In this document: piece by piece, positions 2 through 42,281 of the stretch
How the letters are laid out: each line of letters begins with the position of its first letter
How positions within the stretch are numbered: the first letter of the stretch is position 1
Origin: Bacteroidota bacterium
Lineage (GTDB): Bacteria > Bacteroidota > Bacteroidia > Palsa-948
Length of the DNA: 50,359 nt
Assembly (NCBI GenBank): GCA_023251625.1
Contig: JAHEYK010000005.1
Coordinates: 1-50,359 of the forward strand
Reading direction: 5' to 3'
Made by a program: the position numbers and the translations under genes
Notes under the pieces: model-generated
Told to the model about the DNA's origin: nothing
Seen by the model: only the letters and a program-made list of their open reading frames with translations
Databases searched by the model: none

Positions 2-2653
2 TTTGCAGTTTGGTTATCCTTTTATGGTTATTCCCAAAACATATCTACCATAGCCGGAAACGGAAGCTCCGGTTTTAACGGAGACGGGGGCCAGGCCACT
101 TCTGCAACACTCAACTATCCCCAGGACATCACACTTGACAGTGTAGGAAATGTGTTCATAGCCGATTGGCAAAATTGCTGTGTCCGGAAAATAACGGCTT
201 CCACCGGCATCATTACCACGGTGGCGGGCTGGGGCCTGTCCTGCGGATCAGGCGGGGACGGTGGCCAGGCTACTTCAGCGGGCTTATCCGGCCCGGGAGC
301 GGTTTGTTTCGATCGTGCAGGTAACTTATACATTGCAGACAGCAACAATAATAAGATACGGAAAGTAACTAAAGCTACAGGCATCATTACAACTGTAGCA
401 GGAAAAAATGGTCCCGGAGGCTATAACGGAGACGGAATATTAGCTACTTCCGCATCACTGTATGGAGCTGCCGGTGTTTGCGTGGATGATTCAGGTAATA
501 TCTACATAGCAGATAACAGCAACCATAGGATCCGCAAAGTAACAGCAGCCACAGGAATTATTTCTACCATAGCAGGAAACGGTACATCCGGGTTCAGCGG
601 AGACGGGGGCCTCGCAACGGCAGCGCAGTTTTACTATCCTTCGGGAGTAACTATGGATACTGCCGGAAATTTCTATATAGGAGATTGGGCCAATCACCGC
701 GTTCGAAAAGTAACAGCATCCACAGGTATTATTACTACCGTGGCAGGAAATGGAATAAATGGATTTGCCGGAGATGGGGGACTTGCAACTTCCGCATCAC
801 TCACATACGTACATGCAGTAGGCCTTGATCCGGCAGGGAACATGTACCTGGCCGATATCACGAATAACCGTATCCGGAAAGTAATGGCTTCAACAGGAAT
901 TATCACAACAGTGGCGGGAATCGGAACCCAGGGATTCAGCGGAGATGGCGGGTCTGCCCTTTCAGCAGAATTGAACCGGCCTTATGCTGCCCGGATTGAT
1001 TCTTTGGGAAATATGTATATCGTGGAGCAGTACAACCAGAGGGTCCGCAAAGTGATAGGTGTGTATCCCGGATCACCGGTCATTATGGGCAACACAACCA
1101 TCTGCAACGGAAAAAGCACCACGCTCACGGCTTCGGGCGGAACAACCTATTCATGGAGTACAGGCGAGTCGGCATCCACGATCACTGTTTCACCTTCGGC
1201 AACGGTTGTTTATACTGTTACGGCAACAACGGGAACTTTCGTTGCAGCCACCACCACCACGGTAACAGTAAATCCTACACCCACTGTAACTGCCGGTGGC
1301 AATGCAAGCATTCTTTGTAAAGGAAAAACTACTGTACTGAATGCTTCAGGTGCAAATACGTATGTGTGGTCGCCTGCAGCGGGCTTGAGCAATCCAAATA
1401 TTTCCAACCCGATTGCAGGCCCTACGACTTCTACAAATTATACAGTAACAGGCACAAATACCTATGGATGCAAAGATACTTCCACCTACAGCATAACAGT
1501 AAATCCAACACCTACGGTGAGTATAAGCGGAATAAAAACAATTTGCAACGGCGAGTCCACCACACTTACCGCCTCGGGAGCAAGTTCATACGTATGGATT
1601 CCCTCGGGGAGTTTAGACAATTCAAGTATTGCAAATCCGGTTGCTACTCCCACCACCTCAACAAATTATTTTGTAACAGGAACCGATGTGAATGGCTGTA
1701 CCGGTACTTCAACTTACAGTGTCACTGTCAAAACAAATCCCGGCATTGGCGTGAGTGGTATCAAAACAATTTGCAACGGAAAAAGTACAACGCTCTCAGC
1801 TTCGGGTGCAAGCAGCTACGTCTGGTCGCCTTCCGGAAGCCTGAGCAATTCTACGATCGCAAATCCGGTTGCAGATCCAACCTCTTCCACCACCTACACC
1901 ATCATAGGAACATACCTGGATGGCTGCACCAAAACATATACTTGTAACATCACCGTAAATCCTACACCTGCCGTGATCATTTCAGGAAACAATACGATCT
2001 GTTCCGGCAGCTGCGTTACGCTCACTGCATCCGGGGCATCAACGTACACCTGGGTTCCGATCGGGCAAACTTTTCCGACCCTGGTGCGCTGTCCCACTAG
2101 CCTTACAACTTATACCGTGGACGGAAAGGATGCCAACGGATGTACCAATACAGCTGCTTCACCCGTTACTGTAAATCCTCTTCCTGTACTGAGCGTAACT
2201 TCTGTAAACGCCACGGCTCCCGGATGCTGCAATGGCAGCGACAGTGTTTCTGCATCGGGCGGTATCTCTCCTTATACGTACAACTGGTCAAATGGCTGTA
2301 CTACCTCTGCGTGTATCGGCCTATGCACAGGCAGCTATTCCATTTCCGTATCAGATTCGGTCGGCTGTATTAAAACCAGCACTTTCACAATTTCATGCCT
2401 CACTGGAATTGAACTTGACATTTCCAAAATAGAATTGGCATCTTACCCTAATCCTACCCATGGATTGCTGCACCTTTCTTATCCCGGAACAATTACCGAC
2501 ATAATCATTATGGATATGATGGGTAAAAAAATGATCGTCCCAGTAAGCATCCGGGAAAGAACTATTGACCTATCGCCTGTACCTGCTGGTATTTACTTGA
2601 TAAATCTCAAAACACCAAATGGCATTGTTGCACATAAAGTGCTTCGGGAATGA
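2..2653 (+). CDS. NHL-repeat beta-propeller, Ig-like repeat, T9SS type A secreted protein (5' partial)
   Basis: The frame is open to the window edge. The first visible residues (AVWLSFYGYSQ) look like the end of a signal peptide, so the start lies only a few codons upstream; 883 residues are visible. Six NHL repeats follow (residues about 15-355), each with a core like GN-[IVLF]-YIAD-x-x-N-x-[RK]-[IV]-RKV, enough for one six-bladed propeller. Then come five Ig-like repeats of about 75 residues starting with [IT]C.GKSTTLTASG and containing a Y.W.P core, and one SprB-like repeat (SGGISPYTYNWSNG). The last 75 residues form a T9SS type A sorting domain (YPNP, then GIYLINL and a terminal basic strand). 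By family knowledge this is a surface or secreted protein exported by T9SS. The ligand is unknown. The Ig-like repeats are similar to each other, which suggests internal duplication. Confidence 0.9.
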   Translation, partial: FAVWLSFYGYSQNISTIAGNGSSGFNGDGGQATSATLNYPQDITLDSVGNVFIADWQNCCVRKITASTGIITTVAGWGLSCGSGGDGGQATSAGLSGPGAVCFDRAGNLYIADSNNNKIRKVTKATGIITTVAGKNGPGGYNGDGILATSASLYGAAGVCVDDSGNIYIADNSNHRIRKVTAATGIISTIAGNGTSGFSGDGGLATAAQFYYPSGVTMDTAGNFYIGDWANHRVRKVTASTGIITTVAGNGINGFAGDGGLATSASLTYVHAVGLDPAGNMYLADITNNRIRKVMASTGIITTVAGIGTQGFSGDGGSALSAELNRPYAARIDSLGNMYIVEQYNQRVRKVIGVYPGSPVIMGNTTICNGKSTTLTASGGTTYSWSTGESASTITVSPSATVVYTVTATTGTFVAATTTTVTVNPTPTVTAGGNASILCKGKTTVLNASGANTYVWSPAAGLSNPNISNPIAGPTTSTNYTVTGTNTYGCKDTSTYSITVNPTPTVSISGIKTICNGESTTLTASGASSYVWIPSGSLDNSSIANPVATPTTSTNYFVTGTDVNGCTGTSTYSVTVKTNPGIGVSGIKTICNGKSTTLSASGASSYVWSPSGSLSNSTIANPVADPTSSTTYTIIGTYLDGCTKTYTCNITVNPTPAVIISGNNTICSGSCVTLTASGASTYTWVPIGQTFPTLVRCPTSLTTYTVDGKDANGCTNTAASPVTVNPLPVLSVTSVNATAPGCCNGSDSVSASGGISPYTYNWSNGCTTSACIGLCTGSYSISVSDSVGCIKTSTFTISCLTGIELDISKIELASYPNPTHGLLHLSYPGTITDIIIMDMMGKKMIVPVSIRERTIDLSPVPAGIYLINLKTPNGIVAHKVLRE

Positions 2654-3074
2654 CAACCCGTTTGACGTAGAATATTCCGTACGATAGACAAAAATCAAAT
2701 AAGGTCGAGCGAATCGGGTGATCCCATCATCTATTATGGTAAAATTAGTGCCCGACAAATTCCAGCGAAGGCCGCTCGATGATTTTGAATACATCGCCTG
2801 GCTGGATAACAAGATCAGAACCGCCCCTTTGCTGAGGTGATGAGGGAAAAGAGAAAAATGTCTGACTCGCTCACCCTTCATAATACCCTTATTCTTATTT
2901 TTAAAGACTCCGGTAATTACAAGCAGATGTTGCATTTTTCATATAGGGAATCTTGCCTTGTCCTACTATTATTATTAAGTTTCAAAACAAGCAATTTTTA
3001 GCCAAAGTGATGAAAGCCGATTATTATTTTGGGACTATCTTTAGGGGCACTATTTTTACAAAGACGGACATAAT
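2654..3074. other. 421-bp intergenic region, no convincing gene
   Basis: No hairpin terminator follows the NHL gene. A 34-codon plus-strand frame (2736-2840, starting MVKLVPDKFQRRPLDDF) has a protein-like composition. It overlaps the start of a 53-codon frame (2840-3001) that looks like low-quality sequence. Neither is recognised, and either could be chance or a decayed gene. The right end carries the promoter of the WG-repeat gene. Confidence 0.5.
3028..3058 (+). promoter_or_regulatory. Bacteroidota-type promoter for the WG-repeat gene
   Basis: TTTG at 3028-3031 is followed by exactly 19 nt and TATTTTTA at 3051-3058. This matches the phylum consensus TTTG-N19-TAnnTTTG except for the last base. 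The predicted transcription start lies about 10 nt before the ATG at 3075. Confidence 0.55.
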
Positions 3075-3776
3075 ATGAAAAGCAAGATCACTATCTTCTT
3101 ACTCTTTACATGTTCTTTATTCGCAGAAGCGCAGTCGCCATATCGTTTTTACGAGAATGGAAAGGTGGGTTATAAAAATGCGGACGGCAGCACCCTCCTA
3201 CCGGCACAATACGAATCAGGCAGTGAGTTTAAAGACGGATTCGCGCTCGTCATCATCGGCAACAAACGTGGTTTCATTAATACCAAAGGAGAGATCACTA
3301 TACCAGTTATTTATGACGATGCGTCACTTTTTTTCAATGGCATGGCTGCGGTTTCACTGAAAGGCAAATACGGATACATAAATAATACAGGCACCTTTGT
3401 CATCGCTCCGCAATACGAAATGGCCAGGGATTTTTCAGAAGGACTTGCCCTTGTTAAACAGGAGGGGTTGTTCGGCTACATTGACCTGAGTGGAAAAACG
3501 GTGATTCCTTTCAAATACTCTAACGCGAATAGTTTTTCTGAAGGATATGCCGCGGTACGCCTCGGCAATAAATGTGGATATATCGACCCTACGGGAAAGG
3601 TGATGATCAATTTCTCCTATGATATGGTAAGCTCTTTCACCAACAACGAGGCACTGGTGATGAACGGAAAAGAGAACATCATCATCAACAAGAAAAATAA
3701 AAAAGTGCGCAGGATAGAGAATGAGGAGGAAGAGGAGCAAAGAGAACAACAAAAAGCAAAAAGAAAAAGCAAGTAG
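3075..3776 (+). CDS. Secreted WG-repeat protein
   Basis: A 233-residue protein with a signal peptide (MKSKITIFLLFTCSLFAEAQ). About five WG repeats (PF14903 type) of roughly 33 residues follow, each with a G-[YF]-I-[ND]-x-x-G-x-x-x-I-P-x-x-Y core and an F.[ED]G.A.V strand. The repeats run from about residue 28 to 205. The last 25 residues are a highly charged tail of Lys, Arg and Glu (EEEEEQREQQKAKRK), perhaps a wall or polyanion contact. The function of WG-repeat proteins is poorly known and they are often secreted. The stop codon overlaps the earliest possible GTG start of the next gene, so the two may be cotranscribed. There is no T9SS tail. Confidence 0.85.
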   Translation: MKSKITIFLLFTCSLFAEAQSPYRFYENGKVGYKNADGSTLLPAQYESGSEFKDGFALVIIGNKRGFINTKGEITIPVIYDDASLFFNGMAAVSLKGKYGYINNTGTFVIAPQYEMARDFSEGLALVKQEGLFGYIDLSGKTVIPFKYSNANSFSEGYAAVRLGNKCGYIDPTGKVMINFSYDMVSSFTNNEALVMNGKENIIINKKNKKVRRIENEEEEEQREQQKAKRKSK

Positions 3777-3799
3777 TGAACAGTTCCGACCCCTCAAAA

Positions 3800-6700
3800 A
3801 TGAAAACCATGACAGCAAAATACAAAAACGTATTTTTTGCTTTTTTCGTTTTATTTACCTGCGGACAATCCTTTGCCCAACAGGGTTGGTGGACATGGAT
3901 GAAAGGCAGCTATCCGGCTGTGGCTTCGCCCACATGGGGGACACAAGGAGTTCCGGCATTGACGAACGAGCCTCCGGGTGAATATTGCTCCTCCACCTGT
4001 TGGACGGATTCAAAAGGAGATTTCTGGCAATTCAGCGGGGGCAACGGATGGGGTTATCCCACCCTATGGAAATATAGTCCTGCTACAAACATGTGGACGT
4101 GGGTAAAAGGAGCAAACGTATTGGCCACCACCAATGGAGGTGTATGGGGCACGCAAGGAGTTCCCAACATAGCGAATTGTCCACCGGCACTCAGCATCGG
4201 GGCAGTTAGCTGGGTAGATGCGAACGATAATCTATGGTTGTTCGGTGGATTTGGATGGGGAACTACCGGCACCTTCCGTAGCAAACTGGCAGCTGTATGG
4301 AAATACGATCCTCTTACCAACATGTGGACCTGGATGAATGGCCCGAGTCTGGGAAACAATCCGGTCGGTGTTTATGGAACTCAGGGAGTGCCTGCTGCCG
4401 CAAATTACCCTCCTGCACGCTACGAGACCAACGCAGCCTGGACCGATAATTCAGGAAACCTGTGGTTGTTTGGAGGCCAAGGGCCGACCGGGGAACTGAA
4501 CGATCTTTGGAAATACAACATGGCAACAAATCAATGGACCTGGATGAAGGGATCCAACACCGCAGGAAGCGCAGGTAATTACGGTACAAAAGGAGTAGCT
4601 TCTGCCACAAATAATCCGCCTGCGCGGCAGGTTCATTCCCGCTGGAAAGATAACAATGGAAATTTTTGGTTTTTCGGAGGAACACATGTTAGCAACACAC
4701 AAGCCATGAACGATATGTGGAAATATGATCCCACCACAAATAACTGGACCTGGATGAGTGGCTCCAATTTGTTTGACCAGATGCCCGCTCTCCCGGTCAA
4801 ATGCGTGCCTTCCACCACCAATTATCCACAGGCAAGGAGAGAAAATAATTCCAACTGGAAAGATGCTTGCGGAAACTTGTGGATGTTCAGCGGAGACTGG
4901 GTTACCGGAACACAGCTGAACGACCTGTGGTGTTACAAGGTCCAAACCAACGAATGGGTGCTTGTTGGCGGAAATATCGCGCCTGCCGCAGGCACCAAAG
5001 GGGTACCGGCTGCCGCAAACATGCCGCCAAAAATGATAGGCTATGCTGCATGGACAGTCAACAATGAATTCTGGCTGTTTGGCGGGCGGGATGGCGGCAC
5101 CGGAAATGAACTGAACACTTTATGGCGTTATTACCCCGATACCTCCTGCGCTCAAAGTACCTGTAGTGTTGCCAATCCGAATGCGGGATTCACAGCGACC
5201 AATCTTTCGGGCTGCGCACCACTCACCGTTACATTTACAAACACGAGTACGAATGCAACTTCGTGGAACTGGAATTTTGGAGATGGAAATTCATCCACCG
5301 CACAAAATCCCCTTCACACCTACACCACTGCCGGAACGTATACTGTTTCTCAAATTGCGCATAACGGGCCCAACAGCGATACGCTCGTGCAGCCAAATTA
5401 TATCACTGTATTTCCATCGGCAGTTGCAGCGTTTACCGCCAATACTGATACCATTTGCCTGGGGCAAAATGCCACATTCACGAACGGATCCACTAACGCA
5501 AGTACCTACAGCTGGACTTTCGGTGACGGAAGCTCTTCTGCCAACCAGGATCCTGTACATTCTTACACAGCAACAGGATCTTACACAGTTACCCTTATAG
5601 CGCACAATGCAAATGGCTGCGATGATACGATCAGCTCAGCGGTTACCGTTTTGTCTTCCACTGTAACAGCATCATTTACTCAAAGTCCGGGAAGTTGCGC
5701 GCCCGTCACTATTAATTTTACGAACGCAAGTTCAGGAGCTACCACGTACACATGGACTTTCGGGAATGGAAGTTCATCCACAAGTCAAAGTCCTTCCACC
5801 ACGTATACAACTGCCGGAACCTATTCTGTTATGCTGATATCATCCACAAACAGCTCCTGCGGAGTGGGCACTGATACTGCTTATTCTATTGTTACACTCG
5901 GCCAGTCTCCGGCCCTAAATGTTGCGACACAAGGAAGCGTTTCGTGTAATGGAGGAGCCAACGGCACTGCATCAGTCACTGCAACCGGAGGCAGTTCGCC
6001 TTACTCCTATTTATGGGCTCCCTCTGCCGCTACTACTGCAACGGCCACGGGATTATCTGCAGGAAATTATTCGTGCGTTGTGACAGACGCATCCGGATGT
6101 TCAGCAACTCAAACTGTTTCCATTTCACAACCAACTGCCATCACCACAAGCATCACAAACACATCTGCTTCCTGCAATACAAATGACGGAACTGCAACAG
6201 CAACCGCTGCAGGAGGAAGTGGCAACTTTACTTACCTATGGAACCCCAGCGTTGCTTCAACTGCCGGAGCTACGGGCCTTTCGGGCGGAAATTATTCATG
6301 CACCGTAACGGATGCGAACGGATGTACACAAATTTCATCGACCACCATCGCAGTAGCGAACGGCCCCACTATCACAGTGAGCGGTAGTGCCATCATTCAA
6401 CCGGGCAGCTCAACCACATTAAATGCTACAGGTGGAATTTCTTATTCATGGTCTCCGGCCACCGGGTTAAATAATTCTTCGATCGCAAACCCAACCGCGT
6501 CCCCTTCCGTTACGACAACCTATTGTGTGTTTGTTTTTGACGCTGGCGGATGCTATGACTCCTCCTGTGTGGTAGTGACAATAGATGTACCGTGCGGAGA
6601 ATTTTATCTCCCCAATGCGTTCTCGCCTAATGAGGACGGAGAGAACGATTTTTTCAAAGCGTACGTAAACCCCGCTTGCGTCACAGATTTTAAACTAATT

Positions 6701-6874
6701 ATTTACAATCGCTGGGGTGAAAAAGTTTTTGAAACAAATGAGGTAAACGAAAGCTGGAACGGATATTTCAGGGGAACTGCTTCCAATTCGGCTGTATATG
6801 CCTGGTATTGCAGGGCTACACTGACCAATGGGCTAGACATTGATAGAAAAGGAAATGTGAGCCTGGTCCGATAG
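3800..6874 (+). CDS. Kelch-repeat, PKD and SprB-repeat protein with T9SS type B (gliding-associated) C-terminus
   Basis: The protein has 1024 residues from the ATG at 3800. A GTG at 3776 and an ATG at 3809 are alternatives; 3800 gives a normal signal peptide ending SFAQQ. Six kelch-like units of about 70 residues (to about residue 455) share W.WM.G, YGT.GVP, N.PPAR, W.D..GN.W.FGG and LWKY, enough for a six-bladed propeller. Three PKD domains follow (about 465-700; YSWTFGDGSSS-type motif), then two SprB-like repeats (GGS.PYSYLW) and an Ig-like unit. The final 90 residues are a CHU_C/TIGR04131 domain (LPNAFSPNEDGENDFF, then YNRWGEKVFE). Type B cargo normally depends on a PorP/SprF-like partner, and none is nearby. 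It probably acts on the cell surface as an adhesin or glycan binder; the substrate is unknown. Confidence 0.9.
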   Translation: MKTMTAKYKNVFFAFFVLFTCGQSFAQQGWWTWMKGSYPAVASPTWGTQGVPALTNEPPGEYCSSTCWTDSKGDFWQFSGGNGWGYPTLWKYSPATNMWTWVKGANVLATTNGGVWGTQGVPNIANCPPALSIGAVSWVDANDNLWLFGGFGWGTTGTFRSKLAAVWKYDPLTNMWTWMNGPSLGNNPVGVYGTQGVPAAANYPPARYETNAAWTDNSGNLWLFGGQGPTGELNDLWKYNMATNQWTWMKGSNTAGSAGNYGTKGVASATNNPPARQVHSRWKDNNGNFWFFGGTHVSNTQAMNDMWKYDPTTNNWTWMSGSNLFDQMPALPVKCVPSTTNYPQARRENNSNWKDACGNLWMFSGDWVTGTQLNDLWCYKVQTNEWVLVGGNIAPAAGTKGVPAAANMPPKMIGYAAWTVNNEFWLFGGRDGGTGNELNTLWRYYPDTSCAQSTCSVANPNAGFTATNLSGCAPLTVTFTNTSTNATSWNWNFGDGNSSTAQNPLHTYTTAGTYTVSQIAHNGPNSDTLVQPNYITVFPSAVAAFTANTDTICLGQNATFTNGSTNASTYSWTFGDGSSSANQDPVHSYTATGSYTVTLIAHNANGCDDTISSAVTVLSSTVTASFTQSPGSCAPVTINFTNASSGATTYTWTFGNGSSSTSQSPSTTYTTAGTYSVMLISSTNSSCGVGTDTAYSIVTLGQSPALNVATQGSVSCNGGANGTASVTATGGSSPYSYLWAPSAATTATATGLSAGNYSCVVTDASGCSATQTVSISQPTAITTSITNTSASCNTNDGTATATAAGGSGNFTYLWNPSVASTAGATGLSGGNYSCTVTDANGCTQISSTTIAVANGPTITVSGSAIIQPGSSTTLNATGGISYSWSPATGLNNSSIANPTASPSVTTTYCVFVFDAGGCYDSSCVVVTIDVPCGEFYLPNAFSPNEDGENDFFKAYVNPACVTDFKLIIYNRWGEKVFETNEVNESWNGYFRGTASNSAVYAWYCRATLTNGLDIDRKGNVSLVR

Positions 6875-7120: not shown

Positions 7121-7201
7121 GGAGTCCTAGAGGGCCCACCCAATTTGCAAGTTAAACGCCCCATCGATCCTGATCGGTAAAAATTTCCTCCACTACAAGA
7201 A

Positions 7202-9172
7202 ATGCAGAGCAAGTGGTCAGATACTGAAGCAAAAAAAAGGGCGGGCGACCCTGTTCAGTTACGGGTGTATTCATCGCAGCTTTTAGGCAAAGAACCCGAC
7301 CTGGTGCTTCACGGAGGAGGAAATACATCCGTTAAGGTCAAAGAAAAAAATGTTTTTAATGAGCCGGAGGATGTCCTTTATATGAAGGGCAGCGGTTACG
7401 ATTTAGCTGTGATCGAAGCATCGGGCTTTGCTCCTGTAAAATTGGATGTGCTGAAGCGCATGATCCGGCTTAAGGGCATCAGCGATCAGCAAATGGTGCA
7501 AATACAGCGCACCGCACTTACCAACCCTTCAGCACCTGACCCCTCCATAGAAACAGTGGTACATGCAATAATTCCATTTACCTATGTAGATCACACGCAC
7601 GCTGATGCGGTGGTTACCATCACCAATACGGAGAATGGTGAAAAGAAAATTAAAGAGATATATGGCAATAAGGTCATTATTATTCCCTACGTAAAACCCG
7701 GGTTTCCCCTCGCTGAAAAAATGTATGAATTGATCAAAGGAAAAGATCTTGAGCAGCTTGACGGGATGATCCTTCTCAACCACGGTGTTTTTACTTTTGA
7801 TCACGAGGCAAAACGCTCGTACGAGAAAATGATAAGCATTGTGACAAAAGCAGAAAAATATTTGGAAAAAAATGCGAAGCCCTTACCCGTTCAAAAAGGG
7901 GAAGGAAAAGAAAATCTACCGGAGCTTGCAAAGATTCGTAAGCAGGTTTCACTCCGCTTCAAAAAACCTGTCATCGCCCTGTCAGATAACAGCCCGACAG
8001 CGTATTCGTTTTCAAAAAATAAGAACATAGAGAAAATTACAGGAAGGGGGCCATTAACTCCCGACCATATCATCCGCACCAAGCGGACTCCAGCGATCCT
8101 TGATGGCGATCCTGACGGGGAAATTGCTGAGTATGAAAAAAATTATTTGAAGTACTTTAAAAGAAATTCAACTCCCGGCCTTATTTGCCTTGATCCTGCC
8201 CCTCGCTGGGCGGTATGGAAAAATTTTGGCACTATTTCCTTTGGATCAACACTAAAAGATGCAAGTATTGTTTCTGATATTGCTCAACAAACTGTAAAAG
8301 CAATTACCACCGCTGAAGCGCTCGGCGGGTGGAAAGCGCTCCCCGAAAAAGATCTTTTTGAAATTGAATACTGGGAGCTGGAGCAGGCCAAACTGAAAAA
8401 GAAAGGAGCCAACCCGGCATTCGCAGGGAAAATTGCCCTCGTAACAGGAGCCGGAAGCGGAATAGGAAAAGCCTGCACTGAAATGCTTGCGGATAGCGGA
8501 GCTGTAGTGGCAGCCCTTGATATCGATCCTTCGGTTAAGGGGTTGTTCAGTAAAAAGGAGATCCTTGAAATAGTTTGCGATGCAACAGATAAAAAGCAGC
8601 TCCAACATGCGATCCAGGAAACAGTACGGAAATTCGGAGGACTCGATATCGTGGTGAGTAATGCCGGCATCTTTACTGGGAACGAGAATATCGAGGATAT
8701 GAGCGATGAAACATGGAACAAAAGCCTGAATGTGAACCTGACAAGCCACATGCAACTGCTGAAAAATTGTATGCCATTTCTAAAAGAAGGAGTTGAGCCT
8801 GCAATTGTAATTATAGGATCTAAAAATGTACCGGCTCCGGGTCCGGGGGCAGGAGCATATTCTGCAGCTAAGGCCGGGCTGACACAGCTGGCGCGTGTGG
8901 CCGCTCTTGAACTTGGCCAATACGGCATTCGTGTAAATGTGGTTCATCCCAACGCTGTGTATGATACAGGAATATGGACTGATAAAGTGCTTAAAGACAG
9001 AGCCCGTCATTATAACATGACAGTAGAAGAGTATAAAACAAACAATGTTCTAAAAACTAACATCACGTCAAAAGATGTAGCACGGATGGTTTGTGCCATG
9101 GCAGGAACCACATTCGGAAAAACCACAGGCGCTCAGGTACCGGTAGACGGAGGCAACGACCGTATCATATAA
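7202..9172 (+). CDS. Bifunctional class II aldolase / short-chain dehydrogenase (RhaD-ADH-like fusion)
   Basis: The protein has 656 residues. Residues about 15-225 are a class II (zinc) aldolase domain: HGGGNTSVK at 37-45, a Glu at 117 in the catalytic position, and zinc ligands H131 and H133 (DHTHAD) and H194 (LNHG). Residues about 405-656 are a classical SDR: TGAGSGIG (415-422), NAG (487-489) and a catalytic set S540, Y553, K557. D440 at the end of strand 2 suggests NAD(H) preference. The architecture matches the rhamnulose-1-phosphate aldolase/alcohol dehydrogenase fusion family (TIGR02632). The stop codon overlaps the mtnA start by one base, so the two are translationally coupled. This context argues for cleavage of 5-deoxyribulose-1-P or 5-methylthioribulose-1-P to DHAP plus an aldehyde, with the SDR processing the aldehyde. 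No rhamnose genes (rhaA, rhaB) are nearby. The fold assignments are firm; the substrate is inferred. Confidence 0.92.
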   Translation: MQSKWSDTEAKKRAGDPVQLRVYSSQLLGKEPDLVLHGGGNTSVKVKEKNVFNEPEDVLYMKGSGYDLAVIEASGFAPVKLDVLKRMIRLKGISDQQMVQIQRTALTNPSAPDPSIETVVHAIIPFTYVDHTHADAVVTITNTENGEKKIKEIYGNKVIIIPYVKPGFPLAEKMYELIKGKDLEQLDGMILLNHGVFTFDHEAKRSYEKMISIVTKAEKYLEKNAKPLPVQKGEGKENLPELAKIRKQVSLRFKKPVIALSDNSPTAYSFSKNKNIEKITGRGPLTPDHIIRTKRTPAILDGDPDGEIAEYEKNYLKYFKRNSTPGLICLDPAPRWAVWKNFGTISFGSTLKDASIVSDIAQQTVKAITTAEALGGWKALPEKDLFEIEYWELEQAKLKKKGANPAFAGKIALVTGAGSGIGKACTEMLADSGAVVAALDIDPSVKGLFSKKEILEIVCDATDKKQLQHAIQETVRKFGGLDIVVSNAGIFTGNENIEDMSDETWNKSLNVNLTSHMQLLKNCMPFLKEGVEPAIVIIGSKNVPAPGPGAGAYSAAKAGLTQLARVAALELGQYGIRVNVVHPNAVYDTGIWTDKVLKDRARHYNMTVEEYKTNNVLKTNITSKDVARMVCAMAGTTFGKTTGAQVPVDGGNDRII

Positions 9173-10206
9173 TGAAAGTTAACGGCAAACATTACAGAAC
9201 CATCTGGATGGAAAATACTTCGGTCTTTATGATCGAGCAGAATTTATTGCCGTTTGAATTTAAAATATTCCGATCCGATAATTACCACGATACCGCTGAG
9301 GCCATTAAGAACATGACTGTAAGAGGGGCCGGTGCGATCGGTGCAGCAGGAGGTTTTGCCATGGCACAGGCATTTATTCAGTATGCAACAAATAAAATTG
9401 AAGTGGAGAAAGCAAAAAAAGAAATTGAATCTACACGCCCCACGGCACAAAACCTTTTTTATGCCATCGACAAAGTTTACAAAGCAGGTAGGGTGTCTGT
9501 TCAGGATGCAGTGCACGAAGCTCAGCGCATTGCCGATGAGGATTCAGAATCATCAAGGGCAATAGGAGAATTCGGAAACACACTTATCAGGGACGGATTC
9601 AGAATTGAAACACATTGCAATGCCGGCTGGCTGGCATTTGTGGATTATGGTACCGCCCTCTCCCCTGTTTATGCCGCACAACGTGCCGGAAAAAATATTT
9701 TTGTTTATGTAGATGAAACCCGCCCTCGAAGTCAGGGTGCCCGACTCACCGCCTGGGAATTAAAAAATGAAAATGTACCGCATGCCATTATTCCTGATAA
9801 TGCCGGAGCCTATTATATGTCACAGGGAAAAGTGGATATGATGATCGTGGGTGCCGACCGGATCGCTCTGAATGGAGATGCCGCGAATAAGATAGGCACT
9901 CTTGAAAAAGCAATTATCGCAAAAGAATACAACATTCCCTTCTACGTTGCTGCACCATTTTCTACCATTGCTTTTGAAACCAGGACCGGAAACGAAATTC
10001 CCATTGAGCAGAGAAGTGAAGAAGAGGTTTTATACCAAACAGGAACCACGAAGGAAGGAAAAATAGAAAAGATCCTTGTCTGCTCTCCGGGCTCATCAGC
10101 CATGAATCCTGCTTTTGATGTAACACCCGCCCGGTACATCACGGGAATTATCACTGAGAAGGGGATCTATACTCCTGATAAGATCCGCACCTTAAAGACA
10201 AGCTAG
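9172..10206 (+). CDS. mtnA: S-methyl-5-thioribose-1-phosphate isomerase (MtnA)
   Basis: The protein has 344 residues from the ATG at 9172, which overlaps the TAA of the aldolase gene (TAATG). The frame stays open upstream, but this start gives the family length and N-terminus. Family motifs are RGAGAIGAAGG (51-61), THCNAGWLA with catalytic Cys149, VDETRPRSQGARLTAWEL, and VGADRIALNGDAANKIGT with catalytic Asp229. Cys149 and Asp229 are both offset by 11 from the known Bacillus MtnA pair (160 and 240). The enzyme isomerises 5-methylthioribose-1-P, and in shunt organisms 5-deoxyribose-1-P, to the ribulose form. The upstream fusion aldolase could then cleave the product. No mtnB, C, D or K is present in the window. 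Confidence 0.95.
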   Translation: MKVNGKHYRTIWMENTSVFMIEQNLLPFEFKIFRSDNYHDTAEAIKNMTVRGAGAIGAAGGFAMAQAFIQYATNKIEVEKAKKEIESTRPTAQNLFYAIDKVYKAGRVSVQDAVHEAQRIADEDSESSRAIGEFGNTLIRDGFRIETHCNAGWLAFVDYGTALSPVYAAQRAGKNIFVYVDETRPRSQGARLTAWELKNENVPHAIIPDNAGAYYMSQGKVDMMIVGADRIALNGDAANKIGTLEKAIIAKEYNIPFYVAAPFSTIAFETRTGNEIPIEQRSEEEVLYQTGTTKEGKIEKILVCSPGSSAMNPAFDVTPARYITGIITEKGIYTPDKIRTLKTS

Positions 10207-10316: not shown

Positions 10317-12875
10317 GTGTTGAAGAGAGCTTTTACAATATTTCTGTTTGCATTTTTCGTTCATACTGCCAATGCTCAAAACTGGGTATGGGCCAAAAGC
10401 GGTTCTCTGCCAAGCGGGATCGGTGAAGGAATGAGTGTGGCCACAGATGCCTCCGGCAATGTGTTTGTGACCGGATATTTTGGCGCTGCAAGCATTACAT
10501 TCGGAGCCACTTCGCTCACGAGTTCAGGATCTAACTTCGGTTCTTGTTTCCTGGTAAAATATGACCCGAACGGAAATGTATTATGGGCAAAAGGAATTGG
10601 GTTCAATGAGCAGGCGGAGGCTCTCAGCGTAACAACAGATGCTGCAGGAAATGCATATATAACCGGCAATGCCAATTCAGCAACTCTCACGTTTGCTCCC
10701 ATCAGTTTTGCAAGCATAGGCGCTTTTATCGCCAAATATGATCCGAACGGAAATGTACTATGGGCCCAGAATGTTGCCGCATCATCAGTCACTGCCCAAA
10801 GTGTATCGTCTGACGGTGCAAATAACATATACGTAACGGGGCAATTTATTTCTGCCACAGCCTCATTTGGAGCGGGCACTCTCAACAATTCGGGGAACTT
10901 TGATCTGTTCATTGCCAAATACAACGCAGCAACCGGCACTAACCTGTGGGCAAAAAATGCATCCTGCAGCGGGGCTGACGGAGGCTATAGCGTACACGGC
11001 GAAGCTTCGGGAAATGTTTATCTCACCGGATTTTTTGCTTCCTCCATCACTTTCGGAGGAACTACATTGAATAATTCAGGCGGCATGGATTTTTTTCTTA
11101 CCAAATACGATGCAGCAGGAAATGTTACCTGGGCAAAAAAAGCAGGAGGTACATTTGATGACCCCGGATATTCTGTCACTACGGATGCCACGGGAAATGT
11201 ATATGTGACAGGCGCCTTTGCCTCCTCCTCTATTACGTTTGGAGCAACTACGTTGAATAATACCGGAGGCGTTTCCGGAACTAAAGATTTTTTTCTTGCA
11301 AAATATGATGCTGCCGGCAATGTGATCTGGGCAAAAAAGGAAGGAGGTATCATGGATGAAATAGGTTATTCGTTAAGTACAGACCCCACGGGAAACATTT
11401 ACTCGACCGGATCATTTCAATCTTCCAGTTTTAACTTCGGAACGTATACCATGACCTTTCCTCCCGGGGCAAATGACCCATCATTCATTGTCAAGTATGA
11501 TCCAAACGGGAATGTTCTCTGTGCCTCTGCACTGGCAAGCGGTGGGGACGACAATAATGGGGTGGCTGCCGATGCGTCCGGCAATGCATACACAACAGGT
11601 GATTTTTATGTTGTTAATCCTTTCATTGTAGGATCAACCTCTCTACCTCGTACAGGAACCGAAGATGTGTATGTAGCCAAATATACCTGCAACACTGTTC
11701 TTAATGTGGCGGCAACATCCACCAACCCGCTGTGCAACGGGCAGTGCACCGGCACAGCAACTGCAAACCCCTCGTTGGGCACTACTCCTTATACATATAA
11801 CTGGAATGGAGGGCAAACAACACAAACCATTACCGGATTGTGTGCAGGTAATTATACGGTAACCGTAAGCGATGCAGCAAGCAGCACGGCAACCGCAACA
11901 GTTGCTATTACAGAACCCACATCATTGTCAGCAAGTATGAGTTCTACGAACGCTCTGTGCGGAAATAATAACGGCACCGCTACGGCAACAAGCAGCGGAG
12001 GCACTCCGGGATATACCTACAGCTGGAATCCCTCGGGACAAACCACGCAAATCAGTACCGGACTTGCACCCGGTTCTTATACAGCCACGATCACAGATTC
12101 ACATGGCTGCAGCATCACCGATACGGCTTCTGTTGTCGTAGGGAATTTGACCGCTGTTGCTGCTGCCAACAGCACCCTCTGCGAAGGCGATGCTGTAACA
12201 TTCACCGCATCGGGCGGAACAGCGTATGCCTGGAGCAACGGAGCAACCACTACTTCGATCACTGTCTCTCCTACAAGCAGCACAACCTATTCTGTTATTG
12301 TTTCATCCGGAAGTTGTGCGGATACGGCCAGTATATCGGCAGTAGTAAATTCCAATCCACTCGCTACGGTTTCAAGTAACATTACCATTGCTGCCGGAAG
12401 CAGCACCGTACTCACTGCCGGTGGAGGCGGAACTTATATATGGAGCAACGGAGCAAGCGGTGCATCCATCACGGTTTCTCCGGGGGCAGATTCAACATAC
12501 TGCGTATATGTTTCCAATTCTTTTAATTGCACCGATACGAACTGCGTAAGTGTTACGGTAACTACCGAACCGCCGCTGGATTGTTCTACCGCCGGAACAC
12601 TTTTCATCCCCAATGCATTCTCCCCCAATAATGACGGAGAGAACGAAGTGTTTCAGGTCTTCTATGGAAATTATTCATGCATACTGGAATTCAAACTCTC
12701 TATCTATGACCGGTGGGGAGAACATGTTTTCGAAACCAGTGATGCTGCCTTTCAATGGAATGGAAAAAAGGACGGAGCAGTTATGAATACGCAGATACTG
12801 GTATATTATTTAAGCGTGGTGTATATTGACCAAACCAAAGAGGATAAGAAAGGGAATATCAGCCTGGTGAGGTGA
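10317..12875 (+). CDS. SBBP-repeat beta-propeller, SprB-repeat protein with T9SS type B C-terminus
   Basis: The protein has 852 residues. There is no ATG before the signal peptide, so the start is GTG (10317) or the adjacent TTG (10320), giving LKRAFTIFLFAFFVHTANAQ. Seven SBBP-type units follow, with a D-A-x-G-N-x-Y-[VI]-T-G core and K.D..GNV.WAK, from residue about 35 to 460: a full seven-bladed propeller. Next come two SprB-like repeats (CNGQCTGTAT, PYTYNW) and two Ig-like repeats with YAWSNGA.T. The last 90 residues are a CHU_C/TIGR04131 domain (IPNAFSPNNDGENEVF, IYDRWGEHVFE). It is a predicted T9SS type B surface protein. Its stop codon lies 2 bp from the stop of the convergent membrane protein gene. 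Confidence 0.9.
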   Translation: MLKRAFTIFLFAFFVHTANAQNWVWAKSGSLPSGIGEGMSVATDASGNVFVTGYFGAASITFGATSLTSSGSNFGSCFLVKYDPNGNVLWAKGIGFNEQAEALSVTTDAAGNAYITGNANSATLTFAPISFASIGAFIAKYDPNGNVLWAQNVAASSVTAQSVSSDGANNIYVTGQFISATASFGAGTLNNSGNFDLFIAKYNAATGTNLWAKNASCSGADGGYSVHGEASGNVYLTGFFASSITFGGTTLNNSGGMDFFLTKYDAAGNVTWAKKAGGTFDDPGYSVTTDATGNVYVTGAFASSSITFGATTLNNTGGVSGTKDFFLAKYDAAGNVIWAKKEGGIMDEIGYSLSTDPTGNIYSTGSFQSSSFNFGTYTMTFPPGANDPSFIVKYDPNGNVLCASALASGGDDNNGVAADASGNAYTTGDFYVVNPFIVGSTSLPRTGTEDVYVAKYTCNTVLNVAATSTNPLCNGQCTGTATANPSLGTTPYTYNWNGGQTTQTITGLCAGNYTVTVSDAASSTATATVAITEPTSLSASMSSTNALCGNNNGTATATSSGGTPGYTYSWNPSGQTTQISTGLAPGSYTATITDSHGCSITDTASVVVGNLTAVAAANSTLCEGDAVTFTASGGTAYAWSNGATTTSITVSPTSSTTYSVIVSSGSCADTASISAVVNSNPLATVSSNITIAAGSSTVLTAGGGGTYIWSNGASGASITVSPGADSTYCVYVSNSFNCTDTNCVSVTVTTEPPLDCSTAGTLFIPNAFSPNNDGENEVFQVFYGNYSCILEFKLSIYDRWGEHVFETSDAAFQWNGKKDGAVMNTQILVYYLSVVYIDQTKEDKKGNISLVR

Positions 12876-35758: not shown

Positions 35759-35779
35759 CTCAACTAACGATTGAGGCAC

Positions 35780-37360
35780 GTGAAAAAGAATTCAGTCCTT
35801 CTGCTCCTATCTTGCATCTCCTCCCTCGTGTCTGCTTTCGCTCAAAATCCGGGCGATACACTTTTCAATTCTTCGCACATCCATAACATCAATATCACGT
35901 TCACACAGCCCGGATTTTGGGATTCGCTCATGCACTACAAACAGCATGCGGATTCGTTCAATCTCAATACACAAACGATGATGGGAAATTTTTATCTGGA
36001 CGGGGCACTGATCGATTCAGTGGGTGTTCAGCTGAAAGGAAATTCCAGTTTTGGTTTCCCCGGGAGGAAAAAGCCCATTAAAATTTCTCTCAATCAGTAT
36101 GTATCGGGAAAAAAATTGGAGGGACTCACGGCTATTGACCTAAACAACAATGTGCTTGACCCGACTATGATGCGAGAAAAACTCATGCTTGATTTCATGC
36201 ATAAAAAGGGATTGGCCGCTCCGAGATGTACCTACGCAAAAGTGTCTTACAACGGGCAGTACGTGGGCTTATATAAGATCATCGAGCAGGTGAATAAGGA
36301 ATTTATCAAGACACATTTCAGTACCTGGGGAGGAAATCTTTTCAAAGGCGATCCTCAGGGAAGTTTATATTGGGTAGATAACAATCCCACCAGTTATTAC
36401 CCGTATTATGAGCTTCATTCGAATAAAACAGCAAACAACTGGGGTGATCTCGTTAGCTTTATCGACCATATTAATCATATTCCATCTACCGGCTTCTACG
36501 ATACCCTGGAAACAGATCTGAACACAACCCCTATGATCCAACAGTGGGCAGCACGAAATCTTTTTGTGGATCTGGACGGATATTTTCATGCTCCGCATAA
36601 TTATTATTTATATCACGACTCCCTCACAAATAAATTTGAATGGTGCAGCTGGGATCTGAGCCAGACCTTTGGATCTTATTTTATGACGGAAGATTCTACA
36701 GAGCATATCAGCCTTCTGTCGGCAAACGGCCTGCTCACGCAAAAAATGCTTGCCAACAGCACTTACAAAACAACTTATCTCAATACCATCTGCGATTATT
36801 TAGATTACCTCGATACCACCGTGATGAACCCGATCATTGACAGTCTTGCAGCAAAAATATATCCTGCCTTTTGTGCAGAGCCGGATTCCAACCAGATGTT
36901 TCCGGAACAGATGTTTTACTGGACCATCGATACCATGTCACTTCACCTCCAACCGGGCCCGAACATGAAATTTGATATTCCGGGGCTGAAAAAGTTTATA
37001 ACGAAACGCAGAAACAATGTGCTGGCTGAACTTGCCTCACTTCCTTTCACCTGTACGACCGGGATAAATGAGAATGAAAACACAGATGAGATACTCGTTT
37101 ATCCAAATCCTTCTAATGGGCAGTTCGTCATTGCGAGCCCCGATTTTATCGGGGCGAAGCAATCTCATATAGAAATATATAATGTACTTGGAGAAAAAAT
37201 TTACTCCTTGTCCCCCTCTGGAGGCCTGCCTGCCGGTCAGGCAGGGGGCGCAGGGGGAGGGCTATCCATTGATCTCTCTGAAAAGCCAAATAACATTTAC
37301 TTCCTCCACATCAAAACCTCCCAGGGACTGCTATCAAAAAAGATTATTATTAGCAAGTGA
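35780..37360 (+). CDS. CotH kinase-family protein with T9SS type A sorting domain
   Basis: The protein has 526 residues from GTG 35780 (MKKNSVLLLLSCISSLVSAFAQ); TTG 35771 is an alternative and there is no ATG. The CotH core is visible: VGVQLKGNSSFG, KKPIKISLNQYV, AIDLNNNVLDPTMMREKLML, APRCTYAKVSYNGQYVGLY, GNLFKGD, then NLFVDLDGYFHAPHNYYLYHD and EWCSWDLSQTFG, which carries the acidic and WD-type residues of the CotH active site. The C-terminus is a T9SS type A domain (VYPNPSNGQF, YNVLGEKIY, IIISK). Two palindromic repeats sit in frame inside this domain (SPDFIGAK and about 16 Gly/Pro-rich residues), lengthening loops. It is a predicted secreted protein kinase-like enzyme. The substrate is unknown. 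Confidence 0.88.
   Translation: MKKNSVLLLLSCISSLVSAFAQNPGDTLFNSSHIHNINITFTQPGFWDSLMHYKQHADSFNLNTQTMMGNFYLDGALIDSVGVQLKGNSSFGFPGRKKPIKISLNQYVSGKKLEGLTAIDLNNNVLDPTMMREKLMLDFMHKKGLAAPRCTYAKVSYNGQYVGLYKIIEQVNKEFIKTHFSTWGGNLFKGDPQGSLYWVDNNPTSYYPYYELHSNKTANNWGDLVSFIDHINHIPSTGFYDTLETDLNTTPMIQQWAARNLFVDLDGYFHAPHNYYLYHDSLTNKFEWCSWDLSQTFGSYFMTEDSTEHISLLSANGLLTQKMLANSTYKTTYLNTICDYLDYLDTTVMNPIIDSLAAKIYPAFCAEPDSNQMFPEQMFYWTIDTMSLHLQPGPNMKFDIPGLKKFITKRRNNVLAELASLPFTCTTGINENENTDEILVYPNPSNGQFVIASPDFIGAKQSHIEIYNVLGEKIYSLSPSGGLPAGQAGGAGGGLSIDLSEKPNNIYFLHIKTSQGLLSKKIIISK
37137..37155. repeat. Palindrome inserted in frame in the CotH T9SS domain (1)
   Basis: GCCCCGATTTTATCGGGGC has perfect 8-bp arms and a 3-nt loop. 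Flanks TTGC and GAAGCAA extend the symmetry imperfectly. It encodes SPDFIG between the YPNP strand and the HIEIYN strand. Confidence 0.75.
37211..37260. repeat. Nested palindrome inserted in frame in the CotH T9SS domain (2)
   Basis: The core CCTGCCTGCCGGTCAGGCAGG-type palindrome (about 37224-37245) is flanked by TCCCCCT on the left and AGGGGGA on the right, forming outer inverted arms. It encodes a Pro/Gly/Ala-rich insert (PSGGLPAGQAGG) between two conserved strands of the sorting domain. Confidence 0.75.
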
Positions 37361-37403
37361 GCAGATAGAACAAATTTCACTTACAGATTACAAGAATTTT
37401 CGT

Positions 37404-37411
37404 TAAATTTG
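37404..37411 (+). promoter_or_regulatory. Possible -7 element of the RCC1-repeat gene
   Basis: TAAATTTG matches TAnnTTTG and lies 18 nt before the ATG at 37430. The -33 position (TTAC) is a poor match. Confidence 0.35.
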
Positions 37412-37429
37412 TCACCTAAATTTATTCAA

Positions 37430-40400
37430 ATGCAAATTATTACCCCCCGCTATGTTCGGCAAACAATTTCAGCACTTGCCGTTATATTTTTAGCCGCAGG
37501 TACTTTCAATATATCTATCGCCCAAAAAATATCAGCCGGCAGCGATCATTCGCTTTTACTGTGTACAGACGGAACGGTAAAAGCCTGGGGGGATAATTAT
37601 TATTACCAGCTTGGAAACAGTACGATGTCCGCCAGCAGTTTACCTGTTGTAGTAAATGGCTTAACAGGAACTATTACCGCCGTGAGTGCAGGAGGAAGTC
37701 ATAGTATGGCACTGAAAAGTGACGGAACCGTTTGGGCCTGGGGATATAACTACGATGGCCAGCTAGGAGTTGTAGGAATACCAAGTTCAGATGTGCCGGT
37801 ACAGGTAACAGGTCTTACAGGGGTAATTGCGATTGCTGCCGGCTATTCTCACAGCATAGCGTTAAAAAATGATGGAACCGTTTGGGCCTGGGGAAACAAC
37901 GGCTACGGGCAGTTGGGCGACAGCACCAATAATGGAACCTCAATTCCTGTACAGGCAAAATTCCTGACAAATATTACTGCTATCAGTGCAGGAAATTATC
38001 ACAGCATGGCGCTTAAAAATGATTCTACCGTTTGGACCTGGGGAAGCAACAACTACGGGCAATTAGGCCTGGGATCAAATTCCGACAGCATCTCAGCGCA
38101 TAAGGTTCCGGGGCTTTCCAAAATAATTTCAATCGATTGCGGAGGAAGTTTTTCGCTCGCTTTGAAAAACACAGGAACTATCATGTCATGGGGAGAAAAT
38201 TATTACGGACAATTAGGGGATGGTACACAAATTTCAAATAATGTGCCTATACCCGTGCTGGGGGTCGCAAACGTGATGGCCATCTGCGCAGGCACCAATC
38301 ACAGCATGGCATTGAAAACCGATTCTACCGTTTGGAAATGGGGTGCTACTCTTCCTTTTCCGCTAAGAACACATCGTACCAATGATCTTCAGAATACCAG
38401 CCCTATGCAGATATCCGGCCTTTCCGGGATTTTTGCCATCAGTGCAGGCCAGTATCATCAACTCGCTTATAAAAACAATCAAACAGCATGGGGGTGGGGA
38501 AATAATATGAACGGCCAAATCGGGTGCGGAAATAATTCTGATCAGGTCAATCCTGTGCAGGCGCATTGCATTTGCGGAAGTCTTTACCCCACCGTATCTG
38601 CTTCTGCCGATGTAACTATTTGTCCGGGCACAAACACCACCGTAACCGGACTTGCTTCGGGCGGAAATGGAGCACCGTTCTCGTATGTATGGTCTCCCAC
38701 TGTAAATATTAATTGTACCAGCTGCGCAAATGCTGTGATCAATCCTTTTGTTCCTACTACTTATTTTATTACCGGCTATGACTGGAAAATGTGTTCGGCA
38801 CTTGATTCGGTAAAAGTGGATACGCTCGCTCACCCTTCCGCCCCTATCATTACCCCTTCTCCCTTTCCAACGGTTTGTAACGGCAACCCTGTTTCGCTTA
38901 CTGCGAGTAATCTGAGCCTTACATTTTCCTGGATGCCCGGAGGAAGTACGGCTACTACGATTGTAGTGACTCCGACCGCTAACACCTATTACAAATTAAC
39001 TACCACAGCCGGCAATAACTGCTCTACTACCGATTCGCTGGAGGTAAAACTGTTGAATGCAGGCATCAGTAAATACGATGTGACCACTTGCGGCGGTTGT
39101 AACGGAGCTGCTTACACAAGTGTAACAGGAGGAACAGGGCCTTACACGTATGCCTGGTCAGCAGGAGGCAGTACTACAAACTCTTATGAAAATTCTTTAT
39201 GTACCGGAACATATTCTGTTACCATCACGGATTATAATAGTTGCTCAGTAACCGACAGCGCCAAGATCATTAACCCGGGGCCACTCACTCTGCCTGCACC
39301 CACAGTAACTAATGTTACCTGTAATGGGGCTGACAACGGAACCGCAACTGCGAATCCAACTGGCGGAACACCCTCCTATTACTATACCTGGAACGATGGA
39401 GGTCAGCCTCAATATACGCAGACGGCTACCGGCCTTACCCCCGGAGTAACGTATACAGTGATCGTGACCGATGCGGCGGGTTGCAGTGCTGCTGATACTG
39501 CTTATGTAACTGTAACCGAACCCACAGCGCTTACTACGTCCATTTCAGCGAACGTAAATGTTTCTTGCAATGGAGCCAATAATGGAAGTGCTACTGTTGC
39601 TGCAAACGGGGGAACCGGTTCGTATACTTATTTGTGGATGCCCGGAAGTAAAACAACACAAACTGCAAACAATCTTTCTCCAGGAAATTATTCTGTAACT
39701 GTTACAGATAACAACGGATGTACTGCTTCTCCCCCAAGCATTACGATCACACAACCTGCTATACTGTCTCTTGCTCTTTCTTCCAGCAATCCGACCTGTA
39801 ACGGCCTGTGCAACGGAAGTGCAACGGCAACACCTGGCGGAGGAACAACCCCGTATACTTATGTATGGAGTCCCGGAGGAGAAACCACCTCTGCTGCAAC
39901 CGCTTTATGTGCCGGAACATACACTCTTTCGCTTACGGATGTAAACGGATGTAATGCTACTCAAACTCTTACACTCACGCAGCCAACAGCGGTTACGACC
40001 ACCATTACCCCTACCAATGCTTCCTGCAATGGGATGTGTGATGGATCTGTAATTGCAGGGGCATCCGGTGGAACAGGGACCTATTCCTACACCTGGACTC
40101 CGGGCGGAAATACAACATCTTCTGTTGGTAGTCTTTGTTCCAATACATATTCTCTTGCTGTGAGCGATATGAACGGATGTATGAGTAATAAAACCGTAAC
40201 CATCACCGAGCCTACTGCACTTACCGCAACGGTTTCTAAAACAGATGCCAACTGCAACGGAACCTGTACTGGAACCGCTAGTGCAACCCCAGCTGGCGGA
40301 ACAGGCGCTTATACCTACTTGTGGTTTCCAACTTCACAAACAACACAAGGCGCGTCATTCCTGTGTGCCGGAACCCACAGTGTAATTATTGCTGACAATA

Positions 40401-42211: not shown

Positions 42212-42229
42212 GTTATCTAAAAAATATTC

Positions 42230-42270: not shown

Positions 42271-42281
42271 AATATCACATC

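Follow-up and report, generated by a model that had tools for sequence, protein, structure and literature searches.

The 50,359-nucleotide stretch analysed here (the window) comes from a Bacteroidota bacterium, as contig JAHEYK010000005.1 of assembly GCA_023251625.1, and carries a gene that fuses a class II aldolase to a short-chain dehydrogenase/reductase (SDR). The stop codon of this fusion overlaps the start of mtnA, which encodes a sugar-phosphate isomerase. The pairing recurs at eight loci in several phyla, the fusion differs from the known rhamnose enzyme of the same layout, and in the window genome and its two nearest mtnA-linked relatives it is the only protein matching the aldolase family PF00596. 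Based on these observations, we put the probability that the fusion works in an MtnA-linked pathway at about 0.7, with a substrate that we infer from its partner. The pair probably serves to recycle the sugar that remains after S-adenosylmethionine reactions, a route that has had little notice, and it may oxidise this sugar before cutting it. It gives a concrete MtnA-linked aldolase–SDR candidate in several phyla.

Domains of the fusion and its overlap with mtnA

The fusion and mtnA lie on the forward strand, with the evidence for each feature given after it.

7202..9172, +: aldolase–SDR fusion gene, 656 residues, ATG start, member of NF006196 (open frame, NCBIfam and Pfam)
7202..7876, +: residues 1-225, catalytic class II aldolase domain with H131, H133, H194 and E117 (PF00596, PDB 3m4r, residue conservation)
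7877..8413, +: residues 226-404, probable second, degenerate class II aldolase-fold domain (AlphaFold2, Foldseek, hhalign, invariant residues)
8414..9169, +: residues 405-656, SDR domain of the nicotinamide adenine dinucleotide (NAD) type with D440, N512, S540, Y553 and K557 (Pfam, conservation, Foldseek)
9170..9174, +: TAATG stop/start overlap from the fusion to mtnA (sequence)
9172..10206, +: mtnA, 344 residues, with C149 and D229 (TIGR00512, 368 bits; PDB 1t9k)

The last A of the fusion's TAA stop (9170-9172) is shared with the ATG of mtnA (9172-9174); in the relative G044 the corresponding overlap is TGATG. A preliminary description of this DNA had reported an aldolase–SDR fusion overlapping mtnA, and both parts of that report hold: E117, H131, H133, H194, D440, S540, Y553 and K557 of the fusion and C149 and D229 of MtnA are where it placed them. 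Pfam agrees, with Aldolase_II (PF00596) at residues 31-220 and adh_short (PF00106) at 410-594. The best curated model for the fusion is NF006196, ‘bifunctional aldolase/short-chain dehydrogenase’ (916.5 bits against a cut-off of 831). MtnA scores 368 bits against a TIGR00512 cut-off of 279, and its best PDB sequence match is 1t9k, a ‘probable methylthioribose-1-phosphate isomerase’. A special MtnA subfamily marked by the motif NAGWLA was considered and dropped, because ordinary MtnAs of the class carry the motif too.

AlphaFold2 folded the whole fusion with a mean predicted local distance difference test (pLDDT) score of 91.0 and a predicted template modelling score (pTM) of 0.90. The aldolase domain is 39% identical to PDB 3m4r by Foldseek, which is also its one PDB sequence match. 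That entry is the closest solved structure to the domain, and its title names the N-terminal domain of a protein from Thermoplasma acidophilum. Archaea may thus have a related protein with additional domains. The nearest solved SDRs listed for the SDR domain are, by name, mostly alcohol or hemiacetal enzymes. The metal histidines, the SDR Ser, Tyr and Lys and Asp440 are invariant in 85 close fusions and in 24 rhamnose-type fusions. E117 was assigned as the probable catalytic Glu from the family alignment and from what PMC3870299 states about RhaE and RhaD. In a small and poor alignment with stand-alone aldolases (five loci, two of them without a row), MtnB has Glu and L162 has Asp at this position.

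A third domain, which the preliminary description did not mention, lies between the other two. No Pfam family matched at residues ~226-404, and a PDB sequence search with them gave nothing beyond one match at E 0.88. Folded alone, the domain has a mean pLDDT of 91.6 and a pTM of 0.87. Its best Foldseek matches are the class II aldolases YgbL, B. thuringiensis DrdA, RhaD and FucA, with E-values from 1.6e-4 and query TM-scores of about 0.4-0.55. When aligned by hhalign with the N-terminal domain it gave an E-value of 7.9e-5 over 31 columns, compared with 0.22 for an SDR control, and in this stretch a Phe of the middle domain stands opposite the metal ligand H194. The modelled fold and the profile match suggest that the middle domain is probably a degenerate second copy of a class II aldolase. 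Common descent with the N-terminal domain is likely but not proven, given a 31-column match and TM-scores near 0.5. Nine residues of the domain (H289, K294, Y318, P334, G343, F386, E389, Y390 and W391) do not vary among 55 sequences, six of them rhamnose-type, so the domain is under functional constraint. Class II aldolases usually form their active sites at subunit contacts, so the degenerate domain may complete a catalytic site. The rhamnose enzyme RhaEW has been described as a two-domain protein (PMC3870299).

Recurrence of the pairing and separation from the rhamnose enzyme

Recurrence was evaluated in 295 genomes of the class, in 395 genomes of the phylum and in a scan of named contigs. 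The window genome (G000, in which the window is contig C155) is an incomplete 2.73-Mb assembly, 78.9% complete. A fusion was counted as over the cut-off at NF006196 >= 831 bits. The contig scan confirmed 185 relatives, and the best 80, which are 48-60% identical to the window fusion, were compared as loci; a 2.5-kb flank on both sides was available in only 53 of the 80.

In the class sample 37 genomes have mtnA and three, among them the window's, have a fusion that passes the cut-off. In all three the two genes lie within 2 kb of each other: they adjoin in G044 (99% complete), and in G007 (91% complete) mtnA is 1.8 kb upstream, with one AAA-ATPase-like open reading frame in between. In each of the two relatives such closeness has a chance of about 0.2%, by a rough, post hoc estimate that assumes one mtnA per genome. 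The fusion match in G007 has the same coordinates as that on the contig of locus L046 (‘Bacteroidetes bacterium’). In the phylum sample five genomes pass the cut-off, namely the window's and four of one genus (f112), and no mtnA match was found in the 1.5-kb flanks of those four fusions.

Among the best 80 loci, mtnA stands beside six: L036 (Pseudanabaenales), L046 (Bacteroidetes), L060 and L075 (SAR324 cluster), L057 (‘uncultured proteobacterium’, in one clade with L060 with support 100) and L106 (Betaproteobacteria). Together with the window and G044 this makes eight mtnA-linked loci within 2 kb, from Bacteroidota, a cyanobacterium, SAR324 and a betaproteobacterium. The preliminary description had set recurrence in relatives as a test of its reading, and the pairing does recur, also outside Bacteroidota. 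The gene order varies, with mtnA downstream of the fusion in the window, G044 and L106 and upstream in L036, L046, L057, L060 and L075.

On a tree of 85 fusions, in which L046 and G044 were flagged as long branches, the mtnA label takes five changes, at least four of them forced by supported branches, while shuffled labels average 7.8. The window groups with G044 (support 99) and L036 with the SAR324 type (95), and L046 and L106 stand apart. This pattern reflects either repeated association or one old association that was lost many times, and either way points to a functional tie between the fusion and mtnA.

Fusions of this layout include RhaEW, so the window protein might be a rhamnulose-1-phosphate aldolase/lactaldehyde dehydrogenase with mtnA as a chance neighbour. 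The domain layout is identical and the window fusion does match the RhaEW model TIGR02632, but at 438.8 bits it is below the cut-off of 567.75, and it is only 28-33% identical to fusions from rhamnose loci. The comparison group was 24 class relatives below the NF006196 cut-off, about 30% identical to the window fusion. Position 117 is Glu in 85 of 85 window-type fusions and Asp in 24 of 24 rhamnose-type fusions; position 512 is Asn in all 85 and Leu (22) or Met (2) in the 24. The preliminary description had called for such a comparison, and it separates the groups at these two positions, the metal and SDR catalytic residues being common to both. According to PMC3870299, Asp in place of RhaD Glu117 is a feature of RhaE, and RhaEW genes are always in rha loci. 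A RhaI or RhaT homologue lies within 1.5 kb in 22 of the 24 rhamnose-type loci (20 with RhaI, 13 with RhaT), the two without either being L023 and L028. Where representatives from these loci were scored, RhaT and rhamnose mutarotase passed their cut-offs and the RhaI-family protein was below its own (TIGR02629, 510.6 bits against 646.75). No homologue of RhaI, RhaT or RhaM was found at any of the 80 close loci or in the window, in a search limited to the loci and not extended to the rest of the window genome. The rhamnose function was rejected on the model cut-off, residue 117 and locus context, as the preliminary description had expected, and we regard it as very improbable.

Among the close relatives scored, NF006196 is passed by G044, G007, the four f112 genomes, L038 and L106, and missed by L098 (815.4 bits) and a Shinella fusion (721.8). 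Altogether this suggests that proteins called ‘bifunctional aldolase/short-chain dehydrogenase’ comprise at least two groups, separable by Glu or Asp at residue 117 and by gene context.

Outlets for MtnA, lsrF and the order of reactions

The genomes of several mtnA-linked loci were searched for other outlets for the MtnA product. PF00596 was searched in 11 genomes, and the fusion is the sole match in five of them (G000, G044, G007, G647 and G648). Further matches were found in G646 and G649 (one fragment each), G645 (two), G650 (three), G651 (one) and G652 (two). Of 12 genomes, only the cyanobacterium G645 has MtnB (TIGR03328) over its cut-off, and G000 (incomplete), G044, G007 and the four SAR324-type genomes have no match. 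Since the fusion is the sole PF00596 match and MtnB has no match in G000, G044 and G007, a dihydroxyacetone phosphate (DHAP) shunt linked to MtnA is likely there. The preliminary description had left a complete methionine salvage as a possible explanation of both genes; an outlet through MtnB has no match in these three genomes, and universal methionine salvage was rejected for them, though not for G645.

Operons of the SAR324 type have the order mtnA–fusion–lsrF. The lsrF gene directly follows the fusion in L057 and L060 (NF006081, 515 bits against a cut-off of 297). In L075 a small open reading frame separates the two and the contig breaks off 75 codons into lsrF, and in L072 (‘Candidatus Lambdaproteobacteria’) the fusion is followed by a small open reading frame and an lsrF over the cut-off, the upstream side being cut off. 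Outside the SAR324 group, lsrF is over the cut-off, on the same strand and within 2.3 kb of the fusion in L047, L092, L098 (adjacent) and L101; L083 has a match below the cut-off, and L038 a truncated one on the opposite strand at the contig end. Taxa with lsrF near the fusion include Verrucomicrobiota, Lentisphaera and Shinella. In the annotation of Shinella sp. H4-D48, lsrF lies directly upstream of the fusion, which is followed by genes for a sugar ATP-binding cassette (ABC) transporter and an FGGY kinase. The lsrF/fusion pair recurs on a second Shinella plasmid. NF006196 is the best model for the H4-D48 fusion, though its score is below the cut-off. On the tree of 85 fusions the lsrF label (10 loci, pieces included) takes six changes, at least five of them forced.

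LsrF acts on 3-hydroxy-5-phosphonooxypentane-2,4-dione (given as the hydrate), passing its acetyl group to coenzyme A (CoA) and freeing DHAP (PMC8016206). 5-Deoxyribulose-1-phosphate is the isomerase product in 5-deoxyribose disposal (PMC6079011). By structural comparison, C4 oxidation of 5-deoxyribulose-1-phosphate yields CH3-CO-CHOH-CO-CH2OP, the very compound that LsrF uses. In mtnA–fusion–lsrF operons the SDR would therefore naturally serve to oxidise the ketose-phosphate. Breakdown of autoinducer-2 (AI-2) was considered as another reason for lsrF and rejected. LuxS was found in none of 11 genomes searched, whereas five of 14 control genomes, including E. coli, gave a match; AI-2 made by the cells themselves thus does not account for these LsrF proteins; this covers home-made AI-2 and not the uptake of foreign AI-2, and LsrK and LsrG were not searched.

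These contexts, together with the chemistry, suggest an NAD+-linked variant of the DHAP shunt carried out by MtnA and the fusion. The two proteins would be translationally coupled. MtnA would convert 5-deoxyribose-1-phosphate, and probably also 5-methylthioribose-1-phosphate, to the ketose-1-phosphate, which the fusion would turn into DHAP and an oxidised two-carbon fragment. In this mechanism the SDR would oxidise the C4 hydroxyl to give 3-hydroxy-5-phosphonooxypentane-2,4-dione. Where lsrF is present, LsrF would split this dicarbonyl with CoA to DHAP and acetyl-CoA; where it is absent, the metal site of the fusion would split it to DHAP and acetate. We rate this full oxidative mechanism at slightly less than even odds. 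The strict form, in which oxidation always precedes the cut by LsrF or the metal site, free acetaldehyde is never made and the radical S-adenosylmethionine by-product 5'-deoxyadenosine is salvaged, is more tentative. Oxidation first is the order that best fits all contexts, and aldolase first is nearly as likely.

If the aldolase acts first, the metal domain would cut 5-deoxyribulose-1-phosphate or methylthioribulose-1-phosphate to DHAP and an aldehyde, which the SDR would then oxidise or reduce on the same protein. The metal His triad and Glu117 are invariant in 85 of 85 fusions, G000 has no LsrF match, the stand-alone DrdA performs exactly this cleavage (PMC6079011), and the authors of the RhaEW study proposed an aldolase followed by a lactaldehyde dehydrogenase (PMC3870299). 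This order leaves the proximity of lsrF to the fusion unexplained, and the nearest solved SDRs do not favour it. SDRs usually act on secondary alcohols, which also counts against it. A further point against it comes from Chloroflexus RhaEW, which made no DHAP or lactate without NAD+ and had no activity with NADH (PMC3870299). Its authors account for the NAD+ need by an aldolase that depends on the dehydrogenase (PMC3870299), and oxidation first would explain the requirement of the cleavage itself. Aldolase first is a possible order that we rate slightly below strict oxidation first. The preliminary description had proposed that the aldehyde, once released, would be converted by the same protein; this survives as one of two possible orders, and the lsrF neighbours and the NAD+ need of RhaEW fit oxidation first at least as well.

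The enzyme may instead accept several ketose-1-phosphates, with the substrate set by the nearby isomerase or kinase (MtnA, DhaK/DhaL, an FGGY kinase, or UPF0261 and PF09370 proteins), in which case the window enzyme would not be specific for 5-deoxy or methylthio sugars. DhaK homologues lie beside seven of the 80 loci, although L091, the only one scored, is below the DhaK cut-offs; in L047, L083, L092, L098 and L101 the DhaK homologue comes in addition to lsrF. Genes of the PF09370 cluster lie beside five of the 80 loci and those of the UPF0261 cluster beside five, f112 fusions have UPF0261-like genes nearby (by eye), and the ABC transporter and FGGY kinase in Shinella point the same way. Where mtnA adjoins, however, the known substrates of MtnA and DrdI are 5-substituted ribose-1-phosphates (PMC6079011), and we consider such breadth unlikely for the window enzyme.

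Several results weigh against an MtnA-linked oxidative route. No fusion over the cut-off was found in six other sampled genomes of the window genus, one of which (G128) has mtnA, and 74 of the 80 fetched loci lack mtnA within their flanks, so mtnA is not the only gene to which the fusion family is linked. LsrF is over its cut-off in none of G000, G007, G044, G645 and G650, which are five of the eight mtnA-linked genomes: G044 has a 19.8-bit match and the other four no match at all. The LsrF argument is thus not directly applicable to the window, and in these genomes splitting of the dicarbonyl would fall to the fusion's own metal site. That intact metal site, with Glu117, is equally suited to simple retro-aldol cleavage first. 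G645 has MtnB over the cut-off, and G645 and G650 have two and three further PF00596 proteins, which are other possible outlets for the MtnA product there.

None of MtnP, MtnK and MtnN, which would feed MtnA, is over the cut-off in G000 (79% complete) or G044. MtnP passes its cut-off in G645 and G651 and narrowly misses it in G649 and G650; in G044 the match reaches only 84 bits, and G000 has none. MtnN passes in the four SAR324-type genomes and G652 but not in G000 (28.5 bits) or G044 (32.9 bits), and MtnK is over its cut-off in none of 12 genomes. The single match to the purine nucleoside phosphorylase (PNP) family in G000 looks like a futalosine hydrolase by eye; G044 has three, and the two viewed by eye are PNP-I-like and futalosine-hydrolase-like. 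The ‘one-polypeptide DHAP shunt’ of the preliminary description was too strong, because the isomerase is a separate protein and these feeding enzymes are not over their cut-offs in G000 or G044. As a whole, its interpretation is supported by the recurrence with mtnA, the evidence against a rhamnose function, the lack of an MtnB match and the sole PF00596 match; its on-protein aldehyde step is weakened and the one-polypeptide shunt is unsupported.

Other neighbours and comparison with known systems

Other gene neighbourhoods were noted around related fusions. Five Saprospiraceae/Lewinella loci (L034, L035, L040, L041 and L042) have a PF09370 (phosphoenolpyruvate hydrolase-like) gene after the fusion, and four of the five have a UPF0261 gene; these calls were checked with Pfam on L041. 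Similar PF09370/UPF0261-like genes were seen by eye upstream of the f112 fusions (L113-L116), and there is no mtnA at these or at the Saprospiraceae/Lewinella loci. Nine Caldilineaceae loci (L043, L049-L053, L061, L076 and L084) have a protein with the domain of unknown function DUF169 upstream of the fusion, 33-34 bases away in eight of them; DUF169 (PF02596) was checked in L052 only. Plasmid-borne fusions of Rhizobium leguminosarum, about 37% identical, lie in sugar/glycerol-phosphate operons (two of 330 matching records); the genes annotated in those two records, whose gene table is incomplete, include neither mtnA nor lsrF.

One further feature lies 60 bases 5' of the fusion.

7121..7141, +: tRNA 3'-end-like stretch (15 of 21 bases match the tRNA-Met of G044)

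G044 has an intact tRNA-Met immediately 5' of its fusion, and ARAGORN found no tRNA genes in the window. The stretch is possibly the scar of an acquisition or insertion at a tRNA gene. Elsewhere in the window, several very large, repeat-rich, secreted-looking proteins are encoded at 152-6874, 10317-12875 and 35771-50311. Three of them, at 37409-50311, have near-identical C-terminal tails (NILVYPNPSHGLFTIKDLQ-like) that, by eye, are probable secretion or gliding-type sorting domains.

A literature search found no paper linking the fusion with mtnA, or 5-deoxyribulose with LsrF, with most subscription journals outside the search. The pairing of an isomerase with an aldolase is as such not new, because PMC6079011, pointing to its Supplementary Fig. 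12, notes that in some organisms a kinase or isomerase gene of methionine salvage is found in a cluster with an aldolase. The closest known pathways are the DHAP shunt and 5-deoxyribose disposal, which use MtnK or MtnP, MtnA or DrdI, and Ald2 or DrdA. As in those pathways, MtnA here stands beside a class II aldolase with a His triad and a catalytic-type Glu, and MtnB has no match in G000, G044 and G007. Unlike them, the aldolase is fused to a probably degenerate aldolase domain and an SDR, lsrF occurs in the SAR324-type operons, and G000 and G044 have no MtnP or MtnK over the cut-off. The window fusion is best filed as a member of NF006196 (PRK08324.2-4), whose model name carries no substrate or pathway, and placed in an MtnA-linked DHAP shunt with a presumed substrate.

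LsrF, the thiolase of AI-2 degradation (NF006081), is a neighbour of related fusions, and its substrate corresponds in structure to the oxidised MtnA product; unlike in the AI-2 system, the window genome has no LsrF match and LuxS was not found in the 11 genomes searched. If oxidation does come first, MtnA-type salvage would be linked to LsrF without AI-2, and its products would be acetyl-CoA or acetate and not toxic acetaldehyde. RhaEW and other TIGR02632 proteins (B. subtilis YuxG, Chloroflexus Caur_2283) share the aldolase–SDR layout, the metal His triad, the SDR catalytic residues and an alignable middle domain (six rhamnose-type rows in two alignments). They differ from the window fusion in Asp at 117, Leu or Met at 512, their rha loci and an identity of only ~30%. 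Oxidation first would make sense of the fact that RhaEW needs NAD+ for cleavage, and if RhaEW too oxidises its substrate and then splits it to DHAP and lactate, the order proposed by its discoverers would be revised.

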